Made by a program: the position numbers and the translations under genes. Under the pieces are notes generated by a model that saw only the letters and a list, made by a program, of their open reading frames with translations, was not told where the DNA came from and did no database searches. This document shows, one piece after another, positions 1,086 to 25,200 of a stretch of DNA of 28,329 bases (the stretch's first letter is position 1; each line of letters opens with the position of its first letter). The DNA comes from Neolentinus lepideus HHB14362 ss-1 (Eukaryota; Basidiomycota; Agaricomycetes; Gloeophyllales; Gloeophyllaceae), in assembly GCA_001632425.1 (NCBI GenBank), contig KV425633.1, forward strand, positions 4,364 to 32,692. Direction: 5' to 3'.

Positions 1086-1157
1086 GAATGATGAGAGAAG
1101 AAAGGAGATACGAGCGTCAGCGCGAGCTCACCCGGGAAAGAAAGAACGAGTGCTTAC

Positions 1158-3080: not shown

Positions 3081-3081
3081 A

Positions 3082-3136: not shown

Positions 3137-3152
3137 GAGTTTGTACGCTCAA

Positions 3153-3820: not shown

Positions 3821-3879
3821 TTCGTTTGTTTATACCTCTGACTATGGTAATCATTGATGTTGTATATATCTTTTTTACC

Positions 3880-4080
3880 TTCTACTGGTCTACTGGCTTT
3901 ATTAGTTGGCTCATTGAGTGAGGATACCAGCAAGAGCATGACATAGATGGCATGGAAGTCCTGTGAGATTTTGCATGCTGTTTACATCATTGGTCATCAA
4001 TAGCTGGTATTTCTGCTCAGAAAATTTGGAAAATTGCTAGAAATATCAGAAAAATTTGTACAGCCCAGGGTGGCTGGCAC
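3880..4080 (+). repeat. Dispersed repeat family 2, copy B
   Basis: Second copy, placed in tandem with copy A. It carries an extra 5' part (TACTGGTCTACTGGCTTTAT) that is also present at the start of the right-hand copy C, so the full unit is about 200 bp. Confidence 0.7.
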
Positions 4081-4118
4081 ATTTGTTTGGGTGATTATTT
4101 GTATATGGTAACTTTTAT

Positions 4119-4285
4119 GAGTCCTGAGGTTTTCAGAAAATTCCATACCCCATCATAATCAAAAAATGGATTAAAATAAGATGAAAATAGAATTAAAAAT
4201 CCAATTTAGACCATTTTTAAATTATAATGAAGTACAAAAGTTTCAGACAATTAATATGAAAATGTAACAAGTGACCTCAGGACTC
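4119..4285. repeat. Perfect 12-bp inverted repeat around AT-rich DNA
   Basis: GAGTCCTGAGGT at 4119-4130 is the exact reverse complement of ACCTCAGGACTC at 4274-4285. The enclosed 143 bp is AT-rich and non-coding. This could be a small MITE-like element or the edge of a SINE. No target duplication was recognised. Confidence 0.45.
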
Positions 4286-4337
4286 GTACCCATGCCATGC
4301 AGAGCAGTGGCCCTCTTGCCCAAGTCTTTACACCGAG

Positions 4338-4600
4338 AATGAGCGGGTTGCCGAACAGGAGCATGATGGCTGAGAAGTCGTGGGATTATTCTTATGTAGT
4401 GGCCACTACACTATTGGATGTCCGCATCAAAGTCCGCCTGTAGTGTCAACTACAAAAAGACTACAAAAAGAGTTTTGTAGTGCCTCTGGTCAGGTTTCAG
4501 CCTGCTCCTCAATTAAAGTGGCTCCTTTCTCTCTGATTTTTCTAATATAAGCTTCTGATACCTGCTCACATCACCTGGAATATTTTCCTTATTTTAGGTG
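4338..4600 (+). repeat. Dispersed repeat family 1, copy 2
   Basis: Starts with the same 18 bases as the copy at 3153, then carries TGTAGTGGCCACTACA, a perfect 16-bp palindrome, followed by TTGTAGTG words, a pyrimidine-rich stretch and ATAAGCTTCTGATACC. The copies are clearly diverged outside these landmarks. Confidence 0.55.
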
Positions 4601-4641
4601 CTGTCCTCATGTTCCAATATATTTTACAGCGATGTGGTTCT

Positions 4642-4668
4642 TACATCAGCAAAATGTCGAGCCATCTT
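4642..4668 (+). repeat. Left terminal inverted repeat
   Basis: Reads TACATCAGCAAAATG, then a variable stretch, then CATCTT. The reverse complement of 21592-21618 reads TACATCAGGAAAATG, a variable stretch, then CATCTT, with five mismatches over 27 positions. Confidence 0.7.
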
Positions 4669-5035
4669 AGCAACCGGCTAAGCACGTGTTAAGATCTCTA
4701 AGAAGCCAAGAATAGGCTAAGATAGGCTAAGATTAGACTAAGATCAGATAAGTCCCAAAGAAGATATAAGCTTCGCCGAAGATAGAAAGCAATCACACGA
4801 TAAGATCATCTTAAGACTGCTAAGGAGCTAAGACAGTCTCAAGAGTCCAGTAAGCGCCCCGAAGGAATGTAAGCTCAACCAAGCATTGTAAGACAATACT
4901 TGTAGATTACTCGAAATGGTTAGAACTTAGATAGGCTAAGATCGGGCCAAGACGGCAGTGATAATATTGTAAGATATTGCTAAGATCCTAAGACGCAGTA
5001 AGAAGTTCCTAAGGAGCTCCCTAAGGACGCACGCA
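4660..5035. repeat. Left subterminal TAAG-rich repeat region
   Basis: TAAG or CTTA occurs every 10-25 bases, often as CTAAGA or GGCTAAGAT. Examples are the near-tandem GGCTAAGATAGGCTAAGAT near 4713 and CTAAGGAGCTAAGAC near 4820. Most copies are TAAG on the plus strand. The density drops sharply where the tRNase Z fragment begins. It is probably the binding array for the transposase or its accessory protein. Confidence 0.7.
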
Positions 5036-5270
5036 GGACATTGCAGATGAGCGTGATGAGACCCATCGTGTGGTCAGCTATGCGGGTATGTGTCACAGCA
5101 CTCTCATGCGAATTCCAACACTAGCTCTTCCGTGGGGGGAAGCGCGTACGTACCGTGCATGTGGGTGATGAACACATTGGTCACTCTGCTCGATCTTAGG
5201 TACATTTGGCCCTGTGCTCCCCGCGGCTGAAAAGCGAATTGGTGGACGGTGCCTTCAGTGCAGTCCACCA
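5035..5270 (-). pseudogene. tRNase Z (ribonuclease Z) fragment
   Basis: tRNase Z trims the 3' trailer of tRNA precursors. An exon at 5270-5154 reads VVDCTEGTVHQF and, after RVTN, VFITHMH. It is joined across a GT-AG intron (5153-5078) to an exon starting ADHTMGL. Together they give the metallo-beta-lactamase zinc motif H-x-H-x-D-H (THMHADHTMG). Only this short piece is present: nothing recognisable follows before the TAAG region, and the upstream coding part is absent. The retained intron shows capture of genomic DNA rather than cDNA. The family call rests on one motif plus its flanks. Confidence 0.6.
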
Positions 5271-5429
5271 CTGTCGAGAGGAAGCATTAGTGGATATTTT
5301 CCTGGTTGTAATGTTGCATAGAAACGGGAGCAAGGATGGCTGACGTACCTCAACCCATCATCTGAAGAAATGTCAGTCACAGGGTAGTCGACATACCAAT
5401 GCTCCTTGCCTTAATAGTACTGGGCCCAA

Positions 5430-6612
5430 CCTCTCTTCAACTTGAAGCATATCTCGAACGTAGCACGGAGAATGCTACAGAGCAATCAGCAACTTCAAAA
5501 GAAGCACATGACAGTCTACAACGCACCGACCAGCGGATTGTTGCACAAAAACCATGTCAGCGACGAGAGCAAAACTTCTAGCTTAAGCTGGGAGATGTAC
5601 GCCTGTAAGAGGACATTGATCTTCGCAGTGGGCTCATCGCCACTCTCCTTCACTGGAATCAGAACGTGCTCCAGTAACTTTCCAAGCTCGAGTTTTTCCT
5701 GATTATGTGTACATTAGGGCAATGGCTTGAGATTGATTGAAGAGCAGATACATACCTCCTGCCATACTGGAATATACTCGAACTCATCTGACAGGGCGAA
5801 CACTCTGAAAAGCTCCAGCATCCACATCGATGGCTGCATGTGCTTGTTGTAAGTCGCCATGCAGTTATATGTAACATAGTAATGCGATGCGATGCGAGCT
5901 CACTCCGTAATCTGGAAGCGACCAGAAGCCCTTTCATACTTTATGAGATGACATTTCTCAAGTAACGCAGGAGCAGAGTGAATGATATCTGCATGCTTCT
6001 GGACAAGACCCTTGTTGTCCTCGTAGTCAACACCAACACTGTAGAGGCTCGGCATTTTGAGCATCTGGACGTATCTGACATGCCACGAGTTAGCCTGATT
6101 CTTGCTAGAATTGTGTAGAAGTAACTTACAGATATGTGTATCCCAACCATTGCACGGCCTCATCTTGGTTTCTAATGGTACTGAGGACGATCTCAGCATT
6201 CAAGTTATCGGCCAACTTTGCGATGAACTGCGACTTGATGGGAAGTTGCTGGTTCATTAGACTGAGGTAGTACTGCAGCTCAGAGTGGTCGGTGATGATC
6301 ACTCCTTCTCCGTAAGTGTCATATTGCGGCCGACCAGTGTGTCCAAGCATTTGGAGAACATCTTGGGGTGACAGCTCTACCCATCGACCCTTCTCGGGGT
6401 TGTAGATCTGAGTACCCTCGAGCCGGGAGCAAGCGTGCCAGTCTTGGGCACGGCTTCAACTCCCCTTGCATCCTGGTCTTCATGGCATCGTCAGAGCGCA
6501 TCTTAGCCTGTATGTCGCCCGCTAACTCACGGAGAATCCAGCCAACACCCTTCTCCCTCATTGCTACCTCCACATTGACTCTTTCATCCACATCACTGCG
6601 CTGTAACTTCAT
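5430..6612 (-). pseudogene. BRR2 spliceosomal helicase fragment, internally deleted
   Basis: BRR2 (SNRNP200) is the Ski2-like helicase that unwinds U4/U6. The fragment starts in the N-terminal region (RSDVDERVNVEVAMREKGVG, then WILRELAGD and [10 protein letters not shown]). It then jumps straight to the end of the first helicase cassette ([20 protein letters not shown], then [17 protein letters not shown]), so several hundred residues including Walker motifs I-IV are missing. It continues into the winged-helix and Sec63-like parts ([42 protein letters not shown]). Helicase motif VI has HTGRP where the family has RAGRP. There is a one-base deletion near 5580 and a scrambled stretch near 5890-5915. 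Several GT-AG introns remain (6130-6076 region, 5755-5701), which shows DNA-level capture. It cannot encode a helicase. Confidence 0.85.
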
Positions 6613-6639
6613 ATATTAGACAATTATGTTATGCTTTTT

Positions 6640-7290
6640 TTTAGAAGAGTAGGAAGCTCTGATACTCGAACAACTCCATAAGCTGGTTCTCGCAGTCTCA
6701 GAGACTGGATTCCGAGCCCACAAAGTCTCTTGTAGGGCAGCTTGGATGCTCAACATACGTCCTGACCATCGGCTTGGAGTTCCCAGTGGTGAAGTGGTGA
6801 GGATCGCGTTCCATGCAAAGTCCATTGTGGTCCACAGCCTATTGTCAAACACTCCCAGCATACACACATTGCGCCACACACCGTTGATAACCATTGCGTT
6901 CCTGAGAGCTCGTGCGGGGATACTTGCATTGACACGGTGCAAGTACGTGATCTTCTGCACTGGGAACAGTGATCAGGGATGGTCTCGTTGAGGTCGGACA
7001 TGCTGAGCCTCGTGGGTGGGGCAGGGGGGAGCGCGGAGATTGATGTGCTTGGTGTAGAGGTACGAGGAGAGGATGGGGAAGGTCTGTGGGGAGGGGAGGC
7101 AGTTGGGGATGACGGGGAGGGTGGTGGTTCCTGTGTGCGGGTTGTTGGGGTGCAGCTTGGGGAGGTGGGCACAGTGTACGGTGAAGGTGATGTTGTGCAA
7201 GTGACCTTTAGCTCGACGGGCTTGGGGTGAACATTGGATGGCATGGGAATAAATCTTACTTCAATGAAGATCTATTACCACGCCACCTCT
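6640..7290 (-). pseudogene. Clp1-like protein, 3' part (captured fragment)
   Basis: Minus-strand frames read LHNITFTVHCAHLPKLHPNN, then LPVIPNCLPSPQTFPILSSY, YLYTKH and, after a break, NGVWRNVCMLGVFDNRLWTT followed by MDFAWNAIL. The order of these blocks fits the Clp1 (clampless-1) family of mushrooms, in which Clp1 is needed for mating-type-controlled clamp development. One frameshift near 7185 and a TGA near 6975 break the frame. The upstream edge (7290-7229) is a segment also found at 12032-12100, where the 5' part of apparently the same gene continues. The family assignment is from memory of the motif order and is moderately sure. Confidence 0.55.
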
Positions 7291-7292
7291 CT
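7229..7292 (-). repeat. 60-bp palindromic segment, copy 1 (left of JmjC block)
   Basis: The segment is shared with 12032-12100. It can fold back: GGCATGGGAATAAAT, a loop around CTTACTTCAATGA, then the partly complementary ATCTATTACCACGCC. On the minus strand it is in the same frame as both halves of the Clp1-like gene. Together with its partner it brackets the JmjC gene and the truncated LINE. Confidence 0.65.
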
Positions 7293-7413
7293 GATTGCGC
7301 ACCTTCACCTCCTCCTGGTGATCCTAGTAATCCTGAAACTCCTGTCAATTACATTCCAAGAATTACTTTCGACAATCATTGTCTACATTGTAACTTTGAT
7401 TTGATTTGATACT

Positions 7414-9888
7414 ATGCAACCATACACCGAATACTATGGATCAGTGGCCAAGGCTGCCGACATCTATGTAGGGAAAGTGGGTCAGACTATTGACCTTGGA
7501 AGCGGTGCTTTGGGAGTCATCAAAGAGTGTGTCATTCAGCCTGACGAGGTTAAGAATTACTGTCCATGGATATGCACCCCACCACACTTGACCTTTGCTC
7601 GGTTCACGGCACCATTCTCTCCTTTTGACCCTCAAGCTCACGGAATGGGAGATCCATGTCAGATCCTCCGTCCAGGAGATCTGTGGCTCAGCATTGAAGA
7701 GGGCCACAGAGGTATATGGGTCTTAGGCTTTGATAGGTCTTGGATCTTGTGGGATCAACTCGATCCACTGCATCTTATCACCCACCCTGTGGCAGATGCC
7801 TACCTCCTCTTGGGCACCGGGAAAGATCTGGACAACCTGGGGTGGTGGGGACACAAAGTTTGTGGAAACTCAAAAGCATCATTCCAGGCCAGAATACAAT
7901 CTGCCAACTGGAAGTCTGGAGCACATGTTGCTGACCATCTGGCTCTGGTACTTCAGGCTCCCTCCAAGCCAAGGAAGGGTGGCCGCAAGTGCAAACTATC
8001 ACATTCTACTACCACCGATATCTCTGAGAGTCCTCTGAGTAACACCTCAGGGGGGGTGGATATAGCTCAATGGCAGGGCTCCGTTATTTCTGGCCTGCTC
8101 TCAGAAGTGGCCACACTTCCTCCGCAATCAGTACATGGAGATGCAGATCACCTGACAAGCATGTTCCAATCCTTCTCCCTCACTGAGAGGCAGGAGGGAA
8201 TTGAGTTCCCATGTGGCTCAGAAAAAATCAAATGGATGAATGGTATGGAATCGTTCCTGCCATGGATTCGACCACCTAGTGGAGAAGGAGAGGTAAGTGA
8301 CTTTTAACTCACTCATCACTCCAGTTATTAACTTTGAACAGGATGTTATGGCAGTCAAGAAGATGGCAGCTGCGCCTGATGGCAAGGTTGACCCATCGAT
8401 AGATTCTTGGGATATACGAGAATTCTGTGAGGATCCCCTCAATCCCTCGATCCCAGAAGCAAAGGTGGTTATTGAAAGGATCAAGTGTAACATATCTAAG
8501 GGTCGGCCGACACTTGTGAGGGGCTGTCAGCTGGTGGGCCCACGGTTCACATTTGATGAGGGTGCTGCCAAATTATACAAAGGCTCCCTCCACAACCCGA
8601 TATCTGTACAAGGTTTGTGATACCTGATAGTTCTAGTGTGAATTCTACTAACCCTTGATATCCAGAGGCAGGGCGACGACTGCAGTCTGAGCTGAGTGGG
8701 TCTGAGGGACCTCCTGATGTCCACATGAGTTTATCTCTGGAGAACTTCATTCAGGAGGCAACAAGACCAGATCTTCCCGGAAAACCAAAGTTATGCTGCA
8801 ACCTTTTGGATTCATATTCTGTACATAGGATATCAGCACCGTGGTTCGTTTCATATGTATTAGGCTTCTATTTGGCTCCTAAAGTCACAGTGATGTTAAT
8901 CATTTTCTGCCCTAGGTTTCTCAATCAGCAAGAAGAGGCTTTGTACCTCAACAGGCAGGATGAGCATGCACTGTGTCTCCCAGACAGAAATCCAAGACAG
9001 AGAAAGGATGATGCTGATGGATTTTCTGGTGCGCAGCTGATGGACCCAGATATGTCTCGCTTGGGACAGTGGGATCTGCTCACCCATGGTGGCTTTATGA
9101 CTCAAACTCACCATGATGCTGCTGGAGCATGTACATGGATGTCAATCCAGGATGGCTGTAAGTTTTGGACCCTGGTGTATATCAAGTCGAATGCACTCAG
9201 CAGCCGGGAACATGCGAAAGAGCGATTCATAGATGCTACTGGTGCCCTCAAGGATCAAATGGACAACAACAGTGACATCAAGCTCGTAACTATCTGCCTT
9301 GAGCCTGGAGATATCCTGTGAGTCTCTGTGCCCATTTCTCTACTATCCTATCTAATTCCAAACAGTATACAGCCCCCAGCTATCATGCATGCCATCTATA
9401 CTCCTGTCAAGACTGTTGCTACAGGGGGCCATTTCTTCCTCTATGATGCCATGCACCTCACGGAAATTTCCATGGACATTGACCATGACCACAGCGATGT
9501 TACTACTAACCAAGTCCACCATGGAGCCCACCACCTGCTTGTGAACATGACGCTTGCTCTCCCAAACATGTGGGACAAGCCTATGGCTCGTAAGCCTTTC
9601 CTCACCTTGGCTCGATTGATTCTGCGCCCCAAGGACTATGCCCCGGACTTGAAAGGTTTGGGAAAGCCTACCATGTACAAGGAGGAGCGGGTGGAATGTG
9701 AAGTGGTGGGGGAGATTTCTGATGCTCAAAAGATAATCAGGGCTGTTATGAAGGAAAATTCCATCGCACAGGAAGAGGTACTAGCTCGTCACCCAAGGGG
9801 AGATCCATTAGAGCCTGATTTCTATGATCCTGGTGAAGTTATGGTGAGCCTTGGATGTTTGAGGACGTGGCACACTGTCTGCCTGTAG
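7414..9888 (+). CDS. JmjC-type 2-oxoglutarate/Fe(II) dioxygenase
   Basis: By-eye exons are 7414-8292, 8342-8612, 8666-8843, 8916-9317 and 9366-9888. They join in frame through short GT-AG introns to give 750 aa with no internal stop. The C-terminal third has a JmjC-like double-stranded beta-helix: GQWDLLTHGGFMTQTHHDAA with an H-x-D iron motif (His508, Asp510), GCKFWTLVY after the first strands, LEPGDIL, then PPAIMHAIYTP with the distal iron ligand (His585) and VATGGHFF. The first 290 residues match nothing I recognise. Similar proteins are usually histone lysine demethylases or protein hydroxylases, but the substrate cannot be told. The gene faces away from the transposase and sits between the two halves of the Clp1-like gene. 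The start is the first ATG of the long frame; a 5' exon in 7290-7413 and a different last exon (donor near 9844) are possible. Confidence 0.75.
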
Positions 9889-10031
9889 GCTATTCTTCAT
9901 CAGGAGTAGCCAACAGTATCCTTGAATGATTTGCAATGTATTACTAAGTAGTCACTACCTGTTTTTGGTTCCCAATAGAATAGACCCCCACTCCTTATGA
10001 ATATATCTCAAACTCCCCGCAAGATGACCTT

Positions 10032-11057
10032 ATGCTGACCCACCACCGCCTTGAAAAGAACTGGCAAGCACGACTAGAACAGAGCACAATCACTTTTAAC
10101 CCAACAATTACGGTGAAAATGCACCTCGCGGAATACTTCTGGGTGTTCCTCCCACCCCAGGAGACCTCAACGTCGCCTGCATACCGGCTCCAAGCCCCAG
10201 CGCCAGGCCTTAGCCTACAGCATGAGCACCTAACCATCTACACTGATGGATCCTGCATTAACAACGGTAAAGCTGATGCCCAGGCAGGTAGTGGAGTATT
10301 TATACATACCAACAGCCCCATGAACCACGCCATAAAAATCCCTGGACCACATCAATCCAACCAGATAGGCGAGCTCGTCGCCGTCATTGTCGCACTCCAA
10401 ATTGCACCCTCATTTGCGCCTATCACCTTTGTCACAGACTCTATGTACGTGATCGAGGGACTCACCGTACACCTTGGATCTTGGGAAGACCAAGGCTTGA
10501 CTAGAATAGAGAACAGCCACTTCTTCAAAGCGGCGGCCTATCACCTTAGACTCCGCTCCACGATAACAGCCTTCCGCTGGGTTAAAGCCCATAATGGCGA
10601 CCCCGGTAATGAGGCTGCTGATGCCCTTGCCCGTGAAGGTGCCCTAAAGCCAAACCCTGACATACTGAACTTATCAGTACTGAATAACTTCGCACTCCCA
10701 GGTGCTAAACTGTCAACACTCACCCAACATGTAGCATACCAAGCGATACGAGGTTTAAAGGAGGTGAAACACCCTGCACGCAGATCTGCATCTAACAATC
10801 TTGCCAGAATCCAAGCTGGCCTTGAGGAAATAAACGAGCACCCTGAAACAATTGCTCAGCTATGGCTACAATGCCGAAACACTAACCTTCGACCACTGGT
10901 CCGACAATTCCTCTACAAAGCGATACAACACGCGCACCGCATTGGTGACTTTTGGGCGCCCATCCCCAGATACAAGGAACACACAGTGTGCCCATCCTGC
11001 CTCAACTCCTCAGACAACCTTGACCACATTCTCCTTGAATGTGGAACTCCTGCCTGA
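10032..11057 (+). pseudogene. LINE ORF2 C-terminal part: RNase H and zinc finger
   Basis: A 341-aa open frame. RNase H residues are in order: IYTDGS (Asp), IGELVAVIVAL (Glu), FVTDSMY (Asp) and HNGDPGNEAADALA (the H..GNE..D motif). A Cys-His finger follows near the end (CPSC, then DHILLEC). RNase H in LINEs degrades the RNA strand of the RNA-DNA hybrid during insertion. The frame ends with TGA after CGTPA, and about 30 further codons continue in frame, so this stop may be secondary. The true start is missing; the ATG used is internal. Confidence 0.7.
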
Positions 11058-11429
11058 GAAATAACTTGGCTCCTAGCCGCCGATCTCTGGCCAGAACCAT
11101 ATGGAACCTGGCCATCAGTAAAACCTGGGCACCGTCCTCGGATGTGGGAAACTCTCAACCCACTTACCTACACTCCATAACCAAACTAACCCCGACTCCC
11201 AGTCCAGCACACCCTCAAATGAACAGCACACACCCCGCCCCCACCCAGGAGCCTCCTGATTACTCCAAATCCTAATCTCTGAATCTATGTACCTAATCTG
11301 GGTGCTAAGATGCGAGCGCATAATACAATAACGGACTCACTCAATTAAATCCATTGCATCACGCTAGACCAATGCCATTAACCGATGCCTAAATGTCGAT
11401 AGAATAACCGCATGTAAGATTAAACGATG

Positions 11430-11733
11430 CCTAAAAAGACTAAATTAGTAAACGCTACGTGGAATGGCACACTAAAAGACGAACTTACCCTACCACCCAA
11501 CTGGGCCTCCTGGCCTGAGGTTTTAGTGGGTGTTAGGCCACCTAGAGCTCCTACCCAACGGAGACTCCAGGTGTGTCCTCGAGCCCCTCTCCCCAGCCCC
11601 CGCTGGGGGTCGTGCATAAAAGTATTTATCCTCGGACCGAGTAACCAGCCGGTTACTTGCTACAGCAGACCGTGCCGGAGTTAAACCTATTGTTAATTGC
11701 CGGTCGGTCACATCGCTTGTCTAAAAAAAAAAA
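11430..11733 (+). other. LINE 3' untranslated region with stem-loops
   Basis: Two perfect short hairpins precede the A-run: CCCCAGC-CCC-GCTGGGG near 11592 and GTAACC-AGCC-GGTTAC near 11640. Structured 3' ends are often the recognition site for LINE reverse transcriptases. Confidence 0.5.
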
Positions 11734-11985
11734 GAAAGTGGTGAAATCACATCTTTCATAGGCTTGATATGGCGCCTCCTAGATATGACTTGGTAGACAA
11801 GCAACTTACTGCAGAACCCAGAAAGTAGTCAGCAGATATCTAGGCCTAGATAGAGAACATACCCACCTTTTCAAAGCGAGGACCTCGGGTTTCCCGACCT
11901 GCCGCATTTTGTTGCCTGATTTGGCTAAAAATCCCTACCATGGCAGAACTATGTCCGTGATGGCGTACTGATGCACAAGTTCTCG
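11734..11985. other. Unassigned stretch between LINE and Clp1-like 5' part
   Basis: No gene is recognised on either strand. Several splice-like words are present on the minus strand (for example the complement of ACTTACTGCAG near 11805), so this may be degraded captured DNA. Confidence 0.4.
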
Positions 11986-11987
11986 AG

Positions 11988-12100
11988 GGAATAAATATTA
12001 CTTCAGTGAAAATATATTCCCACAGCCACAGCGAACATTGGATGGCGTGGGAATAAATCTTACTTCAATGAATATTTGTTTCCACGCCACCTCTTTCATG
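11988..12100 (-). repeat. 60-bp palindromic segment, copies 2 and 3 in tandem
   Basis: 12032-12100 matches 7229-7292 closely (GAACATTGGATGGCGTGGGA, then TTACTTCAATGA and CCACGCCACCTCT). A further partial copy at 11988-12025 keeps GGGAATAAATATTACTTCAG, TGAA and ATATTCCCAC and can also form a hairpin. Together with the left copy these bracket the JmjC/LINE block as direct repeats. Confidence 0.65.
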
Positions 12101-12332
12101 AGCAAGTGAACGGTCCGGGTCAACTCGTATGGGAGGACATTCAAGTTGGAGAGGGGGATGGGCTGCATGGCATTTAGAGTGTGAAGCATCCTGGAGGGTT
12201 GTCAGCATTGAGAAGAGTCAATGAACAGTAGAGAGTAGAGATAGATGTACTTGGGACCCAGATCTACCTCCAAGTCGACATAAATCATGAATGTAGTCGA
12301 GCCGTCCGACTTGACCACCAACACACTGTTCT
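12045..12332 (-). pseudogene. Clp1-like protein, 5' part (captured fragment)
   Basis: Minus strand: ENSVLVVKSDGSTTFMIYVD, then LEVDLGP. A GT-AG intron (about 12250-12191) follows, then MLHTLNAMQPIPLSNLNVLP and YELTRTVHLLMKEVAW. The frame runs into the shared 60-bp segment and would continue in frame with the fragment that begins at 7290. That is the main reason for joining the two as one split gene. Sequence similarity alone would not let me name this half. Confidence 0.4.
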
Positions 12333-12360
12333 CCTATGCATGTAACCCGATTGAGACTGT

Positions 12361-12656
12361 ACAGCCACTGGAGTTGTTTGTGTTCAAGGGTATATAATTG
12401 TGTCTCAAATAGACTTCCGGTGCTCGGTTTGTTGTGCTCAGTCGATAGAGATAGACCATCTCGTTATCTTGGTGCAAGTTTTGGAGCTTAGAATATCATC
12501 TGAAGGACGTAAAGTGTTGGTGAAGGTGTATGTGACCAGATGTAACTGTGTAATTGTCACACTGGAGTTACAGTTACTGAGGGCGAGTATCGGGTGTTAG
12601 TGACACTTGTAAGTTATGCTAAGACTACTAAGACATTATGTGTATTAAGAAGTGAA
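12361..12656. other. Non-coding spacer downstream of the transposase
   Basis: AT-rich DNA without a supported gene. It contains the presumed 3' untranslated region and polyadenylation region of the transposase gene, which ends at 12657 on the minus strand. Confidence 0.5.
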
Positions 12657-15600
12657 TCATGAGCTACGAGAATGCAGTAACTCAAATGCATGATGGTCTG
12701 CATATTTATTGACATAAAAAATGCAGTACTCATCAAGACTCTTTGCAGCTGTGAGTGTTCGAGTGACATGATGGGTTCCAAACATAGGGATGAGGTGGAT
12801 GGCTTGAAGTATGCGCTGTAATGGAATAATTGTCAAGGCAGCCTTACCACCTCGACGGCCAACCACCCACATGCCCGTGTCTTCATCCGGGTGGTCCTCC
12901 AACCATTCGTACCAATGCACTAAAGCACATTGATACTGTATGTCGCAAAATGTGAATGAGAAAAACATGAAGACTCTTGCGATGTCATAAGGTGGATGTG
13001 GTGAATCTTCAGATTGTACGCCACTCTTCACAAGGACACAGTCAAAGCAGGGAGGACCACCACGCCAAGACGGTGTTGCTCGGATATGCTCCTTCCTCAT
13101 ACCTTGGATACCAGAAGGATCACTTGGGGCATAGAATGTCGCTGCCGCGGAATAGTGGACGTAGATGGGGTCCGTGAACTCTGGGAGCTTTGTGAGGTGA
13201 AGAGATGGCATTTCAGAATTAAGTTGGTCGCGGATAAACTGGCGTAGCAATCCATTGAACGTCGAGTTGTCTAGTTCGTCATAGATGCCAGTAGGGTGAT
13301 ATTCATGTTGACATTCTGAGACAGGATCAGATCCACTGTTTCATATGAGTAAGGAGATACATACTAGAGCGAGATGCAAGCTTAATGTGGGGAGGTCTCC
13401 GTGGCCCGCTCACAGCCCCATCATCCTCGGGTTTGCAAGGGCGCCGTTTTGCTATTAAAATGAGATGGAATTTAATAGGATTTTTTGCACACGAAGCACA
13501 CTTACATGGATGAGTCTTGTCAATAATTCCACGACTGATGAAGTCAACACGGGTCGCAGCCAGCTTATCTAACTGAAGATTTGTCTTGAGCATCTGCCCT
13601 AAGGCTTTGAACCGACTTGAACACCGCCATGGCTCCTTGACAGCTTTTATGTGCTTGGACTCCGTGATCGATGAGCAAAGACCATTGAGGGCACCAAATT
13701 CAAATGTTGCATCATGATAGTGCCTTAGAGAATGTTGCCTAGGTAATGAAAATCCTTCAACACGGACACCAGTTTCCTGAAAGACAATGCGATAATCATG
13801 GAACCGTTCCATTGCTTCTTCAAGCTGTTTGAGAGTCTCTGGAGTCTGAACGTTACGGCGAACCAGATAGCAAAATTCAAGAAATGCGCGTATTGTCCGA
13901 ACAACGTCAGAGGGCACAAGACCATCAATAGCAGGAAGATAGACCTAATCTTCAATATAAGTATATGAACTAAACATCAAATGCCAAACTTACCTTCATA
14001 AGCGCTTTTGAATCATCGCCGGTCCACTGCTTAAACCCGCGGCCCTGGGGAAATCGACGCAGTCCAGTGAATGGAGGAACTGCAGCAATTCTAGACCCAG
14101 AGTGAGCATTGTGCTAGAATACCACAGGAAGATCTTACCGTCGATCAATCTCAGCTAGAACAGCCTCACCACGTGTTGAACCATGCTGTAGGCTGAGTAA
14201 CTCAACTACCCAGTCTACCAGGTGATCTTTGAACGTGCCCTTGATGAGTTGATGAAGGATGTCTGGGGTGATGAGCTCGTGGATATCAGCCCGGGGGAAA
14301 TCATTCATGAATGGCTGTAATGCATATTTCAGTAATGAAACAACATTTGTTGATGGCGACTGATCCAACAAGAGAGAAATAGAAGAAAAGTTTATAAGGA
14401 AGATATACGAACCACAATGTCTCCGACAATCCCATACTCATCCCACAGCGTACCAAGGTCCAGGGCCTCAACTAATGCCTCAGTATGTTCACACCAACGT
14501 CGTATACTTATACAATTTCTTTCCAAGTCGCCACTAGGTGCTGTACATCTGATTAATGATGAACGAGTTAATGCATGTGAATGTTGAAGAGGAAATGGCA
14601 CTTACTTTGCACACCAGCCCTGTACAATACAGGCTAGCAGTGCCTGTTCTGGGTAATCTGCGATATAGGGTCCAAGGCCATACACTGCACGTCGGAACTG
14701 ACCATCAGCACACATAGTGACTTCAGGGTTTGTCATTACTGGTTTGAGGGTTTGTAAGATCCTCGCGAGCGAGGCATGGAATAGTTGGCGTCGAAATTTC
14801 CGGAATTTGACACTGTCTTTGTGTTGACGATCGGCTGTTATACAAACATGAATAGGGTTAGGGTCCCGAGGATAGATGGACTGCTTACTCTTCAGAATAG
14901 CTAGGAACCCAATGACTGCTACAGCACTACGATGTGCTCGGCGCACATTGTTATGATGGTTTCCGAGCATCATGTACAGTGGATAATATTCATTATCACC
15001 AGTAGCAATAGAGACTGTTGTCTTGTCGCTTCCAAGGATGACAGGAACAAAAGCCAAGCCATGGGTTCCTAGGTCCTTAGCAATCTTACTCTAATATTGA
15101 ATAGATGTGTTAGAATATTTTTTGGAATTCCAACAATGACGTACTGATTGTGACCAGGCCCAATCACCAGACATAAAATCCTTGAGACGACGTGTACCAT
15201 CCAAAAAATCCCGTTTGGCGCAGTAATCAATTTCTTCTTTGAAGTCAGGATTGGCGAGCATATTACGGGCAACCTTGAGCGGATCGCGGAAGCAGACTTC
15301 GTATTCAGCGGACATCCATTCAGGAGTGTTATCCTCAGGTCGCGGACCATCATATTTGATATTGAAAGTTTCCCAGTTTACTTCTCCAAGTACAGATGCA
15401 TCAATAGTCTTATATACATCGCTCGAATCGTAAAATGGCACCCGACCACCATCTTTAGCTTTGTCGGTGGCCCATATCTCGAGAAGCGTATTAATTTTCT
15501 TGCCAGACATTTGTGCTTCACTGAACAGGAAATGTGCCAAATCAAATGCAACCTTGTCAGCAGAAGGTGCCCAAGGGCTTTCTGGAGCTGATGCCGGAGG

Positions 15601-16442
15601 TTCTGTCCTGAATGGAGGATGTGACGGCTTTGTAGCCACTGGCTTTTGAGGCAGAGGCTCTCCTTTGCTATCACATGGCGCTCCTGAATTGCAAAGCATT
15701 AGCCTCATGAGGGACGAAGCCAGGGATATATATAAGTACCGGTTAGATGAGGGTGATAGAATGTTTGAATACTGCTTGGTTCATCGAGGGTGTCGCTAGT
15801 ATATCGATCAGGATTAGACAGAGGAGAACTTCCTGCCCTGCTACCATCACTTCTCAGGGGATGTATTTCCTCTTCCTCTGCATTGTCACTGTCCGTTGAG
15901 AAGGTTTCATTGTCCAAGTACAGGTCGTCATCCTCGGCCTCAGTAGCAGATGCATGAACATCAGCATAGTCATAGAAATGAGGGTGGAAGATAGTGTCAA
16001 TATAGTGGGAGTTATCGTAAGAGCTTCCAGATGTAGGGGTACAGCTGCGTCCATCTTGAATATGCGGATCCAGATTGGGTGTGTCAGAACTCCCAGAGTG
16101 CGATGGCACTGAAATATCTTGCAGTTCAGCACAGTAATCAGGTGTCCTGGGGCTTGATAGGTGTGCGTGTGCAGAAGGTGCAGGTGTGGGAGGCCTGGTT
16201 TGAGGTGAGCAGGAGCGGGAGCGGGCTCTGGATGGGAATCGGAAAAACTGACTAAATATTCCAGAAGGCCCTTCAGCAGCGGGTATTGTTGCAGCATTCT
16301 GAGGTGGTTTATAAGGATGTTTCCACTGTCGATGTTTCTTCAGTCCACCAGTAGTGTGGCAGGATTTATCACAGTCAGGACACTTGAATGCCGGTGATCC
16401 ACGTTCAACAGAAGTAAATAGATCATTCATCAGAGTGCTCAT
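12657..16442 (-). CDS. Plavaka-type transposase, ten exons, uninterrupted
   Basis: By-eye exons (minus): 16442-15740, 15683-15145, 15090-14889, 14834-14606, 14548-14413, 14359-14139, 14090-13994, 13944-13506, 13451-13365 and 13315-12657. All introns are GT-AG, phases agree, and the sum is 1103 aa without a stop. The N terminus has a C2H2 finger (C21, C24, H37, H42), then a Pro/Ser-rich and acidic linker. The core carries family blocks: PEWMSAEYEVCFRDP, FMSGDWAW, FVPVILGSDKTTVS (Asp436), YGLGPYIADYPEQALLACIV (Asp541), GWCAKCTAP, NDFPRADIHEL, LPRQHSL and NGLCSSITESKHIKAVKEPW (Glu804). The tail ends in DEDTGMWVV and YVNKYADHHAFE. I propose Asp436, Asp541 and Glu804 as the DDE-like triad. No damage is seen, unlike its neighbours, so it may still be active or recently was. 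Confidence 0.88.
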
Positions 16443-16722
16443 GCCTGCACAAAGGTGGTATTTACCAGCTATACCCCCTGGAAGTGTGTGGACACGTCTG
16501 TCACTACAGGAGAACTCGGACTTAGAGAAATATTCTGGGTTTGGCGTGCTCTGGCCGAATTTGGTTCACCGAGCGTTCACCGAGATAAGTTCAACTTCAA
16601 CTCTGACTGGAACTGGAGCTTCGTGACTCCCCACACTCTGCCACATCCTCAATAATTTCCCTCAGAGGCATACAACCATTTTCCGTTTACTATTTCTTGT
16701 CATATCTGTCTGGAAATCCATT
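16443..16722. promoter_or_regulatory. Divergent promoter region of transposase and accessory gene
   Basis: About 280 bp separates the transposase start (minus strand) from the ATG of the accessory gene (plus strand), so both promoters must share it. It is neither coding nor TAAG-rich. No TATA element can be assigned with confidence. Confidence 0.5.
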
Positions 16723-19700
16723 ATGCCGCGTAAAAGAGCTACAAAAGCCCAGGAAGAGCTCCCAGTCGCCCCCACTGCGCCCAAGAAGCAGAAAGGTCGT
16801 CGCACTCCAGAGGAGGTAGCTGCTGCCAAGGCAGAGGCAGAGCGTTGAAAAGAAGAACGAGACTTGATGAAGAAGATAGCACAGGAGAATGCAAGGCGTG
16901 TAAAGGAGGAGGCTAAGCAAGCACACGACGAGCTTGCTGCTAAAGAGAAACAGCAGAAGAAGGAGGAGAGGGCGATGATATACCCTATGTGTCTCTAGGC
17001 TCAGAAAACGCATTTTCGGCACTTTTGCGCTATTTCCCACGCTATGTGCGATAGCGCTAGGGCTCCCGGTCTGGTGGCGCAAGCGATATTCGAGTTTTTA
17101 TTGATTTTTTCAGCTATTTCCTGCACTCCTCGACACTTCGATCTCGTTCAGCAGGCGCTCTGCTGCATTATGTAAGCAAGCGCACCCATCTCGACAATAG
17201 CGGCGGTGCTGTGGTATCCTTCCAACAAGTGGCATAGTGCAGCAGTGTTGCACTGCTTCAGCTGCGTCCGGCAGTGTGGTCTCTATCAAGCTCAAGTCAT
17301 TCCAAGGCTGTGCGTGTGTTGCGGGCACCTGTGCAGCCTCCACCTGGAGCAATAGCGCTTTTTTTGATGTGATGCTGTGCGCGTTCCCACGCCTCTTTCG
17401 GTATGCGGTTGCCTGTGCATATGGACACTGTAGCTTACAGAGATTGTTCCCCTGTCTGAGGTTTGAGATAGATCGGTTTCAGGAGTAGTTCCATTTGTTA
17501 GCATATGGCTCTTGGTTCATTTGTTTACCCAGTAGAGTACTTTAGTTGGACCTCCTGTAGGCAGACAAGGCAGGCAACAGGCACTCCAGTCAGTCCTCCC
17601 TGCGCAATCTAGTGTTCCCATCTCATTCCTGCGTCTATCTCTGAGCTTCCTGCGTCTTGCATCCTTCCTCCAATCTCTGCGTCGCTATCTCTCCAGCCTA
17701 CGATAAAAGCTCCAAGTCACTATCATCGCTATACGTCGCTAGTCGCTACATCGCTATCTCGCCAACTGCTAATAGGCGCGCTGTGTCGCACCTTGTCACT
17801 TTCCGATTGTGTTCTATTTTTAGCCTCCCATCGCTATTCCGTCGCCATCTTTCTACGTCCCTCTTCGCATCGCAGTTTCTTTTGGTTTTTTTTTCATATA
17901 CGTCGCATTTGTGGTTTGCAGTCTTGGCCCTATCCTTCCATTTACTCCCTCCGAACTATCTATTACCCTTCGTTACCCCGGGCCTCGCAGCCATCTGACA
18001 CCAAAGGCTTTGGTGTTTGCTTTGTGGTTGTGTCTACCCTTTAGGTCTCTTTTTCCGCGGGTTTCGTTGTGTGTTCGTGTTCATCAGCGAAGAAGCGAGA
18101 GCATGACAAGGCCGAGCGCCAGAAAGCAGCTCAGGAAGCGAAAGCTGCAAAGAAGGAGCAGGCTGCACGTGAAGTTGAAGCTGTTCGTTCCACTGCCCAG
18201 GACCGAGTAGCAGCACTTGAGATGGAGGCTGCTCGAGCTGACCTTGAACGCCGGTCTAGTCGCATTACCAGCATCGAAGATACTCAACCGAGACTACTGA
18301 AGAGGTCATATGCTGTTGCTGATCTGCATGAGCATGCTGCTACCTCTGCTTCACCCTCTTTGGAAGATGTGCCCGATGAGACTGGCATACCTTTTAAGCA
18401 TATCAGAGCCCGCATCTTAGACCCTAGCTCGGATGCTGGCGATGTCGTGAATGCGCTTTCTAGAGGGAAACACGAACACACCTTCATGCTCCAAGCTCCG
18501 TCCGATAGCGAGTCAAAAGATGAGATGTCAAGTCAGCTCTCTGAGCTGGAAGAGGAAGAGCAAGAGGTAACAACTGAGCTGGACGATGAAGAGGTACCAG
18601 CCCAGCTGTCTGGAGAGGAAGTTGATCAGCTGGCTTCTGATGTGCAGTCGAAGCATTCCCTTTCTCCAGCAACTGCGAGTTCCCAGACTCGGACTCAGAA
18701 GAAGAAGGGGAAAGCAAAGGCCGAACACAAGCCTTCTTTCTGTGGTGGCGTTGATCAACGGAGGAGCTTCTTCACCCAAGATGAATCTTTGACAGTCCAT
18801 GGTCATGGGGTAAGCATCACTCAGAGCCAGGGAGAGCGTGCCAGTCGTGCCAGTCAAGCTCGGACTGCCATTGGCAAGCATAGCACACCTATCCGGTGTG
18901 TGTTGGAGGAGCCTATCTTTGATTTCACACGCTGATTACATTACATCTTTAGATCAGGAAATGCTTCTACCAAGTACGATAGACTCCAGGACCGTCTTGC
19001 TGATGCTTGGGGAGGAGTGTCCAACAACTCTCCTCTTGTGACCAGCAGGATCCACCGTCCGCTTCCGGTGCCAGAACTAGGGCGACACTGGGGGATTGGA
19101 TCTACTCATACTTTCGGCCGCCCTCCATCCAGCATAAGCCGCATTCATGAAAACTCAGAGAGTGAAAGTGAGACTAATGCTAACACTGATGAAAACAACA
19201 TTATGCAGTTAACCGACACCGAGGTGGAAGAGCGACAGGCAGCGCTTGTTTCTCCTCAGAAGATGCCGGCAGCCCGTGCTGCAAATAAGGTATGACTACT
19301 CCCACCATCATTATACTGCATTAATGTTCTATTTTACAGAAGTTGATGGTCATTGGTGCTGCGTCAAAGCTTCCCACTGCTGTGGGAGGGCCAGACAAAA
19401 TGAACGATAGTCTACTGATTACGCCCATCCCTCCAAAACCACGCAAACGAACAACAGCCATGGTGAGTTATTTTCAGACGTGTTTGTGATTCTTACTTAA
19501 ATTCTGTAGATGGCGGCAGCTGTTGTTGATGGGAAGAAGCCGAAGGTGAGACTTTGATCCAGTAGTATCAGATGCTTATAAACTTGTTATATTCTTACTA
19601 GGGTCCTCGTGCACAAGCAGCCAAATCAGTCGGAATCAAAGAAGAACCAATTGATCTGACAATTAGTGTTCCTCCTAAAGTGTCAGGTGAGGTTATCGAT

Positions 19701-20823
19701 ATCGGAGACTCTGGAGACAGCGAAGAGAGTGATTCGGAGGGTGACACGAGGAAGGGTAAGACCAATAAGGATCTGGAGTTCAATCTGGCAAAGGATCTGG
19801 TCTGGCGGCATGGTTTCATGGTGACCATGATTCGTTGGATGGCGACGCGGCGCAGGCCGTGGTTCGCTGATGACAGCGATTTTCTCCCTGTTCTTCAGGA
19901 GACATGGAATGCTCTATTCTGAATCAAGCATGGAGAGTTCCTTATCACGAAGAATACTGTGATTTATGAGCGCGTAAGTCTTGTGATTCTTATAACTATG
20001 GTCTTATAACTTGCTATTTTGTATATATAGGCCAGGCAGAAACTATATGATTGGAGGAATGGAATAGGACAAGCAGCCGTCCAGGCTGTTGATGCTCACT
20101 TCAACGCTCATCCCCAGAAGTATAACTCCCTCGACGCTCGCCAGAAGTGGGCCGCATATATGCTAGAAAATTACAGGTTTGCCTATTGGGACACTGCTGA
20201 CCCGGACGCAGATGTAAGCAGTGCCTTTCTTCATTTCCACATGATTGAAAGTTCTGCGTCTCAGGAATGGAGTGGTGTTCTTTGCTCAAGTTTGATGGAG
20301 AAGACCCTTGCATATCACTATTCATGGTTTAAACATGGTAAAGATGTCTTGATTCCGCAGCTATTGAATGGAGATGGCGAAGAGAAGGTTCCGGTTGGTG
20401 CGATTGGTCTTGCCACCTCTGCTGTAAGCTCTTGGTTATATTACAGCTACCATACTAATACATTTTATGCAGCTTGAGCGCATTCTCACCAAGTGGTCCA
20501 TGCGACATGCTGCAATCTCAAAAAAGAACGGAAAGACGATCATTCTGGCTGCACCAAAGAATGAGAAGTCTGACAACAAAGGCAAGATGAAGCAGGGAAC
20601 TGGAGTCCATTTCACTGCCGACGAATACAGCGAAATGACCAGAGCATGGTCCAACTGCGCTGACCATTGTGATGCAAAACAGTTCCAGCAGCTGCTGTCA
20701 TCCGCCATGCATACTGCTGGTGCCTCGACAAGATGGCTTTCTCTTTTCAAGACTTACGAGTCTGACGAGGATCCGAGGGCTCAGCTGGGGGGTCATTCAC
20801 GTCGTGATGGTGCTCGACGATAA
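16723..20823 (+). pseudogene. Transposon accessory gene (coiled coil plus unknown domain), decayed
   Basis: Exons by eye: 16723-16975, 18091-18895, 18953-19289, 19340-19462, 19510-19545, 19602-19973, 20031-20213, 20265-20423 and 20473-20823. The start MPRKRATKAQ leads into a long Lys/Glu/Ala coiled coil, then a Ser/Glu-rich acidic stretch (SQLSELEEEEQEVTTELDDE) and further disordered segments. A C-terminal helical domain of about 280 residues follows (LVWRHGFMVTMIRWMATRRR, then EKVPVGAIGLATSALERIL and TKWSMRH). I do not recognise it for certain; its shape recalls basidiomycete domains of unknown function such as DUF6532. Damage: TGA at about 16846, TGA at about 19919 (both where CGA is likely) and a 1.1-kb insertion. 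Position opposite the transposase suggests a TnpA-like partner, which is inference. Confidence 0.6.
16976..18086. mobile_element. Solo-LTR-like insertion (1111 bp) in the accessory gene
   Basis: The insert begins TGATATACCC and ends GTTCATCA (TG...CA, as in LTRs). It is flanked by GCGA on both sides (16972-16975 and 18087-18090). Without the insert and one GCGA the coiled-coil frame continues without a shift, which fixes the boundaries well. It has no GT-AG ends, so it is not an intron. A TATA-like GATAAAAG occurs near 17703, followed by a pyrimidine-rich stretch. The orientation, and whether the duplication is 4 or 5 bp, are unsure. No internal retroelement genes are present. Confidence 0.7.
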
Positions 20824-21285
20824 AGGCAGTGTAAGTCATAAGAAAGTTTAATAGTGTCCGTACCATCTGATGACCACCCAAGTCGACTGACAGCCTCACC
20901 CTAGCCCGCAATACATGTCTTGGGCCATATCGAGGATTCTGTCACAGCGCCTAGCTGCCTATCACTAGAACTCACAATGCTCCTCGCGACTCTGGAATGG
21001 TTGCCTACTGTCCCTACTTGGCACGCAAGTTATCTGTTCTCCATAACTTGGTTGACATTATCGTCTTTTGTTTGACTCTGTGCTGTCTTTTTCAACTCCT
21101 GGTCTTTTGCGTATTTTGTTCTCATCACTATGGCTTCTTTCTCATCAATTTGATTGATGCCTCCCTATGTCTTTTTGCAGTCACAGTCTCCTTTGGCCGA
21201 ACCTTATAGGTGTCTTATTTGCCTTATTCTGTTCTTGCGAGTGCTTGTATTCTTATATGCATTTTAATCTATTAACATCTTACTT
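20824..21285. other. Downstream spacer of the accessory gene
   Basis: No gene supported. Short hydrophobic frames around 21000-21350 reflect T-rich composition. This probably includes the accessory gene's 3' end. Confidence 0.45.
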
Positions 21286-21590
21286 CCTTACGAGGTCCTT
21301 AACCGGTCCTTACATCTATCTTACAGGTTCTTATATTGTGGATAAGACCATTTAAGATGGTCATTAAGAACCCATTTAAGCTGCTACTAAGGGCCATAAG
21401 ACCGGCTTAAGATGGCGGCTAAGCACCCGTTCAAGCCTGTATTAATACCGGATAAGACCGGAGTAAGAGCCCAATAGAGCTTCCTAAGATGGAATAAGGA
21501 TGGACTTGGCTTATCTTGTCTTAGCCATCTTATGGCGTCTTAGAGCATAAATAAGATCCGATAAGATATTCTAAGCTCACAAGATCCCGG
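21286..21590. repeat. Right subterminal TAAG-rich repeat region
   Basis: TAAG and CTTA words occur about every 10-20 bases in both orientations: CTTAC and CCTTA words dominate at 21280-21330, then GGATAAGACC, TTAAGATGG, ATAAGACCGG and GATCCGATAAGAT. Motif and position mirror the left end at 4660-5035. Confidence 0.7.
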
Positions 21591-21591
21591 A

Positions 21592-21618
21592 AAGATGCCG
21601 CAGCATTTTCCTGATGTA
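21592..21618 (-). repeat. Right terminal inverted repeat
   Basis: On the plus strand it reads AAGATG, a variable stretch, then CATTTTCCTGATGTA. It is the inverted partner of 4642-4668 and lies just outside the TAAG-rich region. Confidence 0.7.
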
Positions 21619-22215: not shown

Positions 22216-25200
22216 TTATTGTTCTTTCTCCGGAGGTAGCAGATTCTCACCGTGTGTTTGCGTGAAACGTTTCGTCTGATGGACGTAAGTGAGGAGGGAT
22301 TTCACTTCCGAGGTGAGGAGGGCGGAGATATTGGATGCAGTGCGCCCCAGCTTGCATCGCAATGTGAAGCGCTGCTGCTCGTACATCCCACACTCGAGAA
22401 TGTAATGATGGACATCTTCTGGGACTCCTGGGCAGTGTTCACAGTTGGGAGATGGTGATGCTCGAATGCGATGAAGGTGAGCATTAAGCGGTGTGTGTCC
22501 GGTATGTAATTGCATTATAATTGCAGCGTGGGGACGGGGGAGGTTGGCGATGTCAGAAAGGAAGGACTTTGAAGGGAGTTTTGGGTCGATGGCTGCAGTA
22601 TGTTCATAACGGGGTGACTGCTTCCATTCCTTCTTCCACTGTTTCATAAGACAAGTGCGATAAGCTTGCTTGAGTGCTGACACACTCAGAGGTAGCAGTT
22701 TGTGGCATAAGATCTGCGGAAGGAGGTGAGTAGCACTTGTTTTACCTTTCGCTGCATGTTTTGCTTCCTTGTCTGTTAACTCGTTCCCTTCGAGATCCTT
22801 ATGACATGGCACCCATCTGAGTACTATTTTGAGGTCTTTGTGATGGTCAATGAGCCTTTGCACCTGGTTCCGGATGTGCTGAAGAATGTGATAGCCAGGT
22901 CGCACTTTTCGAGTAGGTAGTGCCTGTAGAACAGCCATATTGTCTAGGCCGATTGAGATAGTACCTTCCAAGTGTTGCTCCTTACGACGGAGTTCAAGGG
23001 CAAGTATTACACCTACCCCCTCTCCGGAGTAGACAATGTGTTGCTGGAGGGTTCCGAGGCAGTATCATAGTGTCTTGGGAGGCTTCTGGCGCTTTAGCAT
23101 AACCGCGGATGCACCAACCTTACCCTTGTATCCTGATCCATCAGTGTAGAGCCTAACCGCAGCAGTGCATTCCCATTCAATCTCCTCTCACATGGCCTCA
23201 TCCTTGTTGCGAGCGGTATGGATCGTGAAGGGGGGTTTCCAGTCGGGCGGTGGTCCTACAGAGTCGAGCTTCTCCATGGCATCTGTGTCAATATGGAAGG
23301 TATGAAAGAGGTTGTGTAGGGGTGAGCAGTGGCGTTTGACTAGGTGTCTTGATGCTCATCTGATGTATGGTGCAAGAGGGTGTGTTTTCGGCAAGGAGGC
23401 AAGCTGAAGGCTTGCTCACAAACATTCAAATTGAGTAAGTGGTGGGTCGGCCACAGGTTAGCATGAGCATCTAGCACATCCGTTGCTGTGCTGCACAACC
23501 CACCAGTGATGCAGGTGGTTGCAGCACACTGAATGGTTGCGAACCGGTGTGCTATGTGGACAGATCCTCATTTGTTCTTGCAGGTGGTCACTCTGTGAAT
23601 GGGGGTGTACCATATGTCAGCTGCATACGCCACTTTCCTTACTGCCACACTCTGGTAGAGCTGTTGAACGCCCTTTGGGGACAGACCATACTTTGTCTTT
23701 GCAAGTCTGCGAAGCTGGTATGTCCATTGTGCACCCTTGTCCAGGGCATAGTCAGTTTGCGCCTTCCAGTGCAGTTCTTGGTCGAGCATAACACCTAGAA
23801 ACTTATGAGATACCTTCGGCTGGATTACTATACCGTTCAACTCCAAACTCGGGCGTGGTGCTGGTTTGGTGCAGCGTGCTGAGTTTGGATCTCGATCAGG
23901 AACACGTGCTCGAGAGAAGTGTATGAGGCCGAATTTCGCAACTTCAAACTGTGAGTTGTGTTGCCTGGCCCATTCCAGAGCACCTCCCGGGTGGGTCATC
24001 ATGTTCTGTAATATGTTAGTGGTCTCTCGGAAGTTGTGACCTACCGCCAGGAAAGCAGTGTCATCCACAAAAGCAACTGCATCTTCCCGGTCATCTTGTG
24101 GGATCCGAAGAAGGCCAGGATTGTAGAACAAGAATGAAATGAGGGAGATGGGGTCTCCCTGGCCTAAACTGCTGATGATAGGTATCCATGGTGATTCATA
24201 GTTGTCAAATTTGAGTTTCATCTGTCGATCTGTAAGCATGCGGTCCATGAACTTGATGTATTGATTGGGTATCCCCGCCATTTGCAGATCATGGAGAAGG
24301 CATTCCGGCACGACATTGGGGAAGGCTCCTTTGATGTCGAGGAAGAGGATGGAGGCGACCTTGTTGGTCCTCCATGCATTCTTGATCTTGGTAACAACGT
24401 GGTGCAGTGAATCGGTGGTCGTATGACCGGGTTGGCCTCCAAAGTGCTTAGAGGGCAGTGCACCGTGCTTCTCGCTGATGTAGGTGATGTCCTCTGTGAT
24501 GACTTTGGTCAGTACTTTGCCTATTGTTGTGTAGAGAGCTATGGGTCAGTATGATTTTGTTAAACCATAGTCAGCTTGCCCTGGTTTGCGAAGGACGACC
24601 GTATGCCATTCTCGCCACGGTGGATAGTACGTGTCAAGATCAAACACGGCAAGAAAAAGGTAGTACAATCTGTCAATGATGATGTCAGTACACTTCATGA
24701 GCACTATGTTTTTGATACCGTCAGGCCTGGGGGCCTTGTGAGGGTCTAGGGAGGCTAGGGCACGTTTAATGCATGTACGGGTAGCAGGTCAGAACTTGGA
24801 GATAGGCAGTGGTGGAGCTGTGTCCGGATCAACAAGGGAGTGGGCTGGAGGCTGTGGGAAGAAGGAGTTAGCAAGCTGCTGAGCTCGGTCTTCATTCGTA
24901 GTGGCCTCGCCAATGATTTGGCCAGCTGCGTCTTTGATTTTGAGGGTTGGCACTCGAGTTTTCCCCCCATCACCGACAGGCCCTGAGATAAACTTGTTAG
25001 CTGTCCATATATCCTTACCACTAACATGGGTCATCCACTCTTCCCAGTGTTTGGATTTCTGCTTCCGAATAGCATCTTGGTAGTTCTGCTCTGCTTGCCG
25101 AAAGATGTGGTGAGAAGGGTGATCAGGTACGTAGCAATACTTATGCGCTTCATTCCCGAGCACTCGGAGCTCTTTACGACGGGCTGTTAACTCTACCGTC

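Follow-up and report, generated by a model that had tools for sequence, protein, structure and literature searches.

A stretch of 28,329 nucleotides on contig KV425633.1 (C83) of Neolentinus lepideus HHB14362 ss-1, hereafter the window, contains a bounded element in which a core of transposase and partner gene adjoins a slot holding pieces of three host genes, the tail of a long interspersed nuclear element (LINE) and a complete gene for a JmjC dioxygenase. The element measures 16,973 bp, and its relatives were sought in a draft genome of 33.8 Mb in 168 contigs, designated here as C1, C3 and so on. We consider it probable that this is a PlavakaB transposon, a cut-and-paste element of the CACTA-like CMCT clade, with gene-capturing, Pack-type behaviour, and that the JmjC gene is carried in it as cargo. 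An earlier note on this DNA had proposed a Plavaka-type element whose defined ends enclose host-gene pieces and an intact gene for JmjC, and this much of its proposal stands.

Ends, core genes and sister elements

Inspection of the termini reveals two 27-mers that are identical in inverted orientation at 22 of 27 positions, whereas shuffling the bases of both 1-kb end regions 30 times gave at best 20 matches. The mirrored subterminal zones reported earlier are equally clear, where 25 TAAG or CTTA motifs in the left and 28 in the right terminal 400 bp stand against a simulated mean of ~6 and a maximum of 15 (2000 first-order Markov simulations per end). The inverted termini are thus as the earlier note described them, with bounds that shift from 4642..21618 to 4644..21616. 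PlavakaB elements are defined by 5'-CATCA..TGATG-3' ends and 2- or 3-bp target duplications (Kojima 2025, PMC12730594; this and the other papers are cited from excerpts), so that the outer TA of each 27-mer is a target duplication rather than part of the element. The element accordingly presents CATCA..TGATG ends, a TA/TA duplication and a Plavaka transposase domain.

Sister elements were delimited by scanning extracted stretches for CATCAG together with a TAAG/CTTA-rich zone. CATCAG..CTGATG ends with a matching 2-bp flank were present in all six elements delimited in the genome, the present one included (Table 1); for the C18 element a weaker alternative left end at 140948 was passed over for 141126, which scores higher and gives a matching flank. 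A terminus search of the genome returned four further ends. The right end of a further large copy at C10:118709 falls in a run of N, and for an end at C30:342721 no partner end was found within the extracted stretch. Genome-wide, the end pattern (at most one mismatch) occurs at 140 places versus 3 for a reversed control. Many inverted CATCAG pairs lie ~200 bp apart among the ~100 places listed (for example C132:36286-36497, C6:293757-293968 and C13:101893-102350), which suggests that short, non-autonomous PlavakaB copies multiplied in a burst.

Pfam (E <= 0.1) assigns only Plavaka and zf-C2H2 to the transposase, with no KDZ-type transposase domain, and the match to Plavaka PF18759 covers profile positions 1-325 of 325 (E 2.7e-117). 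The naming of Plavaka-type transposases reportedly stems from Iyer et al. 2014. The gene is uninterrupted, as had been claimed, and has nine exons rather than ten in the present model, in which one splice acceptor was picked by reading frame. The divergent partner gene is present as well; what the earlier note had missed is that it is not intact. The frame that opens with the start codon at 16723 is stopped by an in-frame TGA at position 16846. An insert of 1111 bp resembling a long terminal repeat (LTR) follows, past which the same protein family resumes; one exon matches DUF6532 at 20.6 bits (cut-off 24 bits). Copies of the insert are dispersed through the genome, one of them inside the short PlavakaB copy at C10:30864-32257, which measures 205 bp without it. 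By hand count from genome-wide lists of DUF6532 and Plavaka loci that are lower bounds, 13 of 17 DUF6532 loci sit 1.9-5.3 kb from an opposite-strand Plavaka match and 4 do not, which indicates that the two genes are normally arranged divergently. The DUF6532 protein could itself take part in transposition, as a second protein beside the transposase. Pieces of both core genes were matched in four sisters (C33, C3, C18 and the large C10 copy), and the other copies that the earlier note had proposed to inspect have the same kind of ends around the same core.

The JmjC gene and the cargo slot

The JmjC gene is complete, in agreement with the earlier description of a whole dioxygenase gene, and its Fe ligands are kept. 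H508, D510 and H585, together with the 2-oxoglutarate lysine K525, are invariant in all eight proteins aligned, where position 505, a threonine here, varies among T, S and L. By sequence the protein appears closest to the KDM2/KDM7 histone demethylases: its best profile matches are KDM2A (E 1.9e-5), PHF8, PHF2 and KDM7, a single-sequence match reaches E 0.00099, and Pfam JmjC_2 at E 0.034 stays under the cut-off. Tet_JBP gave no match in this protein at E <= 10 and the 25 profile hits with E of 1 or less include no TET, although searches of this sort would not reach PE-type TET/JBP, which are too distant. Pfam reported neither a PHD finger nor another chromatin-reading domain. Over the tested part the protein is 97% identical to a public protein of the same strain (P0001), the differences being, by eye, exon choices of two gene models. 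A first structure model, of P0001, reached a predicted local distance difference test score (pLDDT) of 36, too poor for use; in a second, weak model, of a JmjC relative, the nearest folds are PHF8, PHF2 and KDM7, with the HxD..K..H residues aligned. The gene is low in CpG (0.33) yet open in frame, a combination that fits a long stay in methylated DNA under constraint.

Genome searches found one good copy of the JmjC gene, that of the present element, and one decayed relative at C123:15230-16246, where HxD reads HHN and one TAG occurs; the relative adjoins a run of N (1-14285) that covers its surroundings. No source copy at the DNA level appears among the genome matches found. CpG depletion is extreme (observed/expected 0.06-0.14) at C123:14501-18500, which holds the decayed relative, and at C82:111237-122737, as expected for long-methylated DNA. 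A genome-wide TET/JBP search returned nothing, but its controls were equally silent, so that the result does not speak for absence. Elsewhere, relatives number at least four in Gloeophyllum trabeum and at least one each in Jaapia, Paramarasmius and Pleurotus, a list that is possibly short in that scoring was confined to the candidates with the most words in common with the query (7997 per search). A search from a Gloeophyllum relative added one Pleurotus protein, and a profile search for further relatives returned the query alone, probably since its words stem from the weakly conserved first half. Two of the four Gloeophyllum trabeum copies are 88% alike and lie on different scaffolds. This apparently patchy and partly recent multiplication is compatible with mobile carriage.

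DNA searches of the genome resolve the slot between the left end and the transposase into an 8-kb patchwork (Table 1). Of the host-gene fragments proposed earlier, DNA matches identify three donor loci, on C1, C106 and C8. The stretch encoding RNase H was rejected as a host-gene fragment; it belongs instead to a LINE-type repeat that closes with a poly-A run and recurs over at least 1.3 kb at eight further places in the genome. The C1 donor is, as we take it by motif, a tRNase Z; the three Brr2 pieces (5349-5423, 5424-6421 and 6418-6720) are separated parts of the C106 gene; and the C8 donor, for which a Pfam search gave no match, may encode a Clp1-like protein. Segment 7200-12144 substitutes for 139 bp of the captured C8 piece and has a 67-bp direct repeat at its bounds. 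This repeat flanks the JmjC gene and the LINE tail, is partly palindromic by eye (GGCGTGG..CCACGCC) and matches only itself in the genome searches made.

Comparison of five captured pieces with their donors shows donor CpG changed to TpG or CpA in the element at 87 of 179 sites versus 9 of 92 for the reverse change. This asymmetry argues for copying from host to element and points to methylation-driven decay, that is to say, to cytosine methylation of the element. Divergence outside CpG is 1.1% for the C1 piece, 5.5% and 9.0% for Brr2 and 11.0% and 7.1% for the two C8 halves, values in which donor constraint is uncontrolled, and the captured pieces appear to be older inward on the left side, giving a rough age order.

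The slot is filled differently in the sisters. A DED1/DDX3-like helicase occupies it in C33 and in the large C10 copy, two elements whose twelve aligned blocks are 77-92% alike (85.7% in the longest, of 5.7 kb), which indicates that cargo in the PlavakaB family spreads with the element. The C3 slot (C3:520378-527225) is filled by 6.8 kb in which an internal stretch is repeated in opposite orientations.

Table 1. Features of the element, in window coordinates, and of related loci elsewhere in the genome
Feature	Position	Strand	Details
Target duplication TA, left copy	4642..4643	.	
PlavakaB element	4644..21616	.	16,973 bp; CATCAG..CTGATG ends; ends and 2-bp flanks common to sister elements
Left TAAG-rich subterminal zone	4644..5024	.	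25 TAAG/CTTA in first 400 bp
Metallo-beta-lactamase-like gene piece from C1	5025..5348	-	96.3% over 324 bp; donor peptide Pfam Lactamase_B_2 E 1.5e-6
Brr2 helicase gene, three copied and rejoined pieces from C106	5349..6720	-	91, 92 and 85%; SNRNP200_wHTH Pfam E 1.4e-11
C8 host gene piece, first half	6748..7199	-	76% to C8:248147-248605
67-bp direct repeat, copy 1	7229..7295	.	90% to copy 2
JmjC dioxygenase gene	7414..9888	+	five exons: 7414-8292, 8342-8612, 8666-8843, 8916-9317, 9366-9888; 750 amino acids (aa); open reading frame
3' end of a LINE-type repeat, RNase H domain, poly-A tail	9993..11735	+	RNase_H E 8.7e-27; A run ~11723-11733
Stretch matching C25	11734..11946	.	86%
67-bp direct repeat, copy 2	12033..12099	.	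90% to copy 1
C8 host gene piece, second half	12145..12300	-	82% to C8:248745-248883
Plavaka transposase	12657..16442	-	nine exons; 1121 aa; open
DUF6532-like partner gene, broken	16723..20823	+	TGA at 16846 and LTR-like insert
LTR-like insert	16976..18086	+	1111 bp; TG..CA; GCGA 4-bp flanks on both sides
Right TAAG/CTTA-rich subterminal zone	21217..21616	.	28 motifs in last 400 bp
Target duplication TA, right copy	21617..21618	.	
Sister PlavakaB element	C33		13,511 bp; identical 2-bp flank
Sister PlavakaB element	C3		14,493 bp; identical 2-bp flank
Sister PlavakaB element	C18		12,517 bp; identical 2-bp flank
Short PlavakaB copy	C82		212 bp; identical 2-bp flank
Short PlavakaB copy	C10:30864-32257		1394 bp; TA on both sides
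DED1/DDX3-like helicase in the JmjC slot	large C10 copy, L022:1062-2255	-	open over 398 aa; E 2.2e-148 to DDX3X
DED1/DDX3-like helicase, same slot	C33:200064-202422 (in L035)		no long open frame

Outside the element, a LINE-type retrotransposon with zinc knuckle, endonuclease, reverse transcriptase and RNase H pieces lies to its right (22216-27888, minus strand), and overlapping self-matches of 75-88% at 490-1123 resemble a tandem repeat. No tRNA was found in the window.

Origin and role of the JmjC gene

The slot may have been assembled in stages. Successive copying events immediately internal to the left end would have brought in the host pieces, probably by template switching during break or gap repair, and a later event would have placed the JmjC gene and the LINE tail into the C8-derived piece. 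The cargo gene would encode an active JmjC enzyme, dependent on Fe(II) and 2-oxoglutarate and of the KDM2/KDM7 kind.

Several observations weigh against parts of this account. The genome search found no JmjC gene in the four sisters, which leaves the present element as its sole carrier; this absence makes the gene look like cargo and not like a standard gene of the PlavakaB family, and the earlier suggestion that JmjC is the element's own kind of gene is not supported by a genome with one good copy and one decayed relative. The structure model of the JmjC relative is weak (pLDDT 54.6, below 50 across the HxD motif, TM-scores ~0.3-0.5). At the decay of the youngest captured piece, a frame of the length of JmjC stayed free of stops by chance in 273 of 2000 simulations, of which the stop-codon counts alone are used, since the transition bias and, at three of the four ages, the indel rates were assumed. 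Of the nine reverse CpG changes, seven fall in one Brr2 piece, and the second C8 half, at 7.1%, departs from the inward age trend. Finally, since the partner gene is broken, the element is possibly no longer autonomous, and its self-mobility may be lost.

What the gene does for the element is a separate matter. It is a substantial possibility, if short of a probability, that JmjC is a passenger, swept up by the slot as the helicase and the tRNase Z pieces were and with no role in the life cycle of the element, given that the slot consists mostly of truncated, decaying host pieces and that the sisters lack JmjC and hold an unrelated helicase in its place. However, among the captured genes seen in this element JmjC alone is full-length, and its depletion in CpG with an open frame, together with the lack of a source copy among the genome matches, speaks against a passive stay. 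We also entertain, tentatively, the alternative that it is an anti-silencing gene serving the transposon, which would do for histone marks what TET/JBP does on other transposons. The nearest relatives by sequence appear to be H3K9/H3K36 demethylases, the CpG decay of the element is typical of methylated DNA, the Gloeophyllum trabeum copies include a closely similar pair on different scaffolds, and TET/JBP on transposons offers a precedent (PMC12730594), all of which would suit such a role; the single carrier in this genome does not. The likeliest function, which we advance as speculation, would be removal of a repressive histone methyl mark from the chromatin of the element so as to aid its expression, the gene otherwise being a passenger. 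It is plausible, though unproven, that JmjC shields the element against silencing, and the idea draws on analogy with transposon-borne TET/JBP (PMC12730594) and with the JmjC genes of Amoebidium giant viruses (PMC11244446), both as excerpted. We regard as rather doubtful the broader proposal that this JmjC group is a mobile anti-silencing family, in which Agaricomycete transposons would repeatedly carry a KDM2/7-like demethylase to erase repressive histone marks, in parallel with TET/JBP on transposons, and the scattered, partly multi-copy spread would reflect transposon carriage.

Two further explanations concern whether the gene belongs to the element at all. The replacement of 139 bp of the C8 piece by a segment bounded by the 67-bp repeat, with the LINE tail adjoining JmjC, could mean that JmjC arrived in a separate nested mobile unit and is not Plavaka cargo proper. 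This is unlikely, as no other copy of a unit of this kind is seen, the searches made matched the repeat to nothing but itself, and the sole other JmjC, on C123, is decayed and adjoins a run of N. An assembly artefact that fused a transposon with an unrelated gene would not be out of place in a draft of 168 contigs with runs of N in several other extracted stretches, but we give it very little credence: the window is free of any such run, the TA/TA flanks and the core order agree with the sisters, and the same gene stands in the public record on a 125,669-base contig, possibly of the same assembly.

Should the JmjC cargo work, a DNA transposon would be equipped to erase histone silencing marks by itself, much as its cousins have TET/JBP, and one could test directly whether mushroom transposons counter silencing. 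Regardless of JmjC function, a fungal CACTA-like transposon is seen to gather pieces of host genes in a rough order of age, with CpG decay pointing to methylation, and the C33 and C10 pair indicates that such cargo spreads with the element.

Comparison with known systems

Searches of an open-access PMC library brought up no paper with a Plavaka-JmjC pairing, in keeping with the earlier note, which knew of none. The contrast that the note drew with TET/JBP carriers of the KDZ group does not stand: in the excerpted text of Kojima 2025 (PMC12730594), Plavaka is placed in CMCT, not KDZ, and PlavakaB elements themselves carry TET/JBP in two Agaricales species. Those elements resemble the present one in their CATCA..TGATG ends, 2- or 3-bp duplication, Plavaka transposase and a possible 2-oxoglutarate dioxygenase gene. 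They differ in that the dioxygenase there is a PE-type TET/JBP, whereas here it is a KDM2/7-like JmjC accompanied by host-gene pieces, and the word "JmjC" is absent from the excerpted text.

Plant Pack-TYPE transposons, as excerpted from PMC8903248, likewise have DNA transposon ends around copied pieces of several host genes, as found here with donors on C1, C106 and C8. In contrast to those non-autonomous plant elements, the present one is fungal and has an open transposase, so that it works like a Pack element while lying outside the strict Pack-TYPE sense.

Three other systems bear on the JmjC protein itself. The histone demethylases KDM2A, PHF2, PHF8 and KDM7 are its best matches by sequence and, through the weak model of a relative, by fold, with the HxD..K..H residues aligned and the similarity remote. 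The endogenous giant viruses of Amoebidium (excerpts of PMC11244446) also bring JmjC genes on invading DNA that the host methylates; they are viruses rather than transposons, their JmjC is KDM4-like and not KDM2/7-like, and Plavaka repeats are reported in Amoebidium as a separate kind of giant repeat. In fission yeast, excerpts of PMC7192584 and PMC6576747 describe Epe1 as a JmjC protein that opposes heterochromatin, which makes it a model for a possible role of the cargo, with the difference that Epe1 is a host gene and the JmjC gene here is carried by a transposon.

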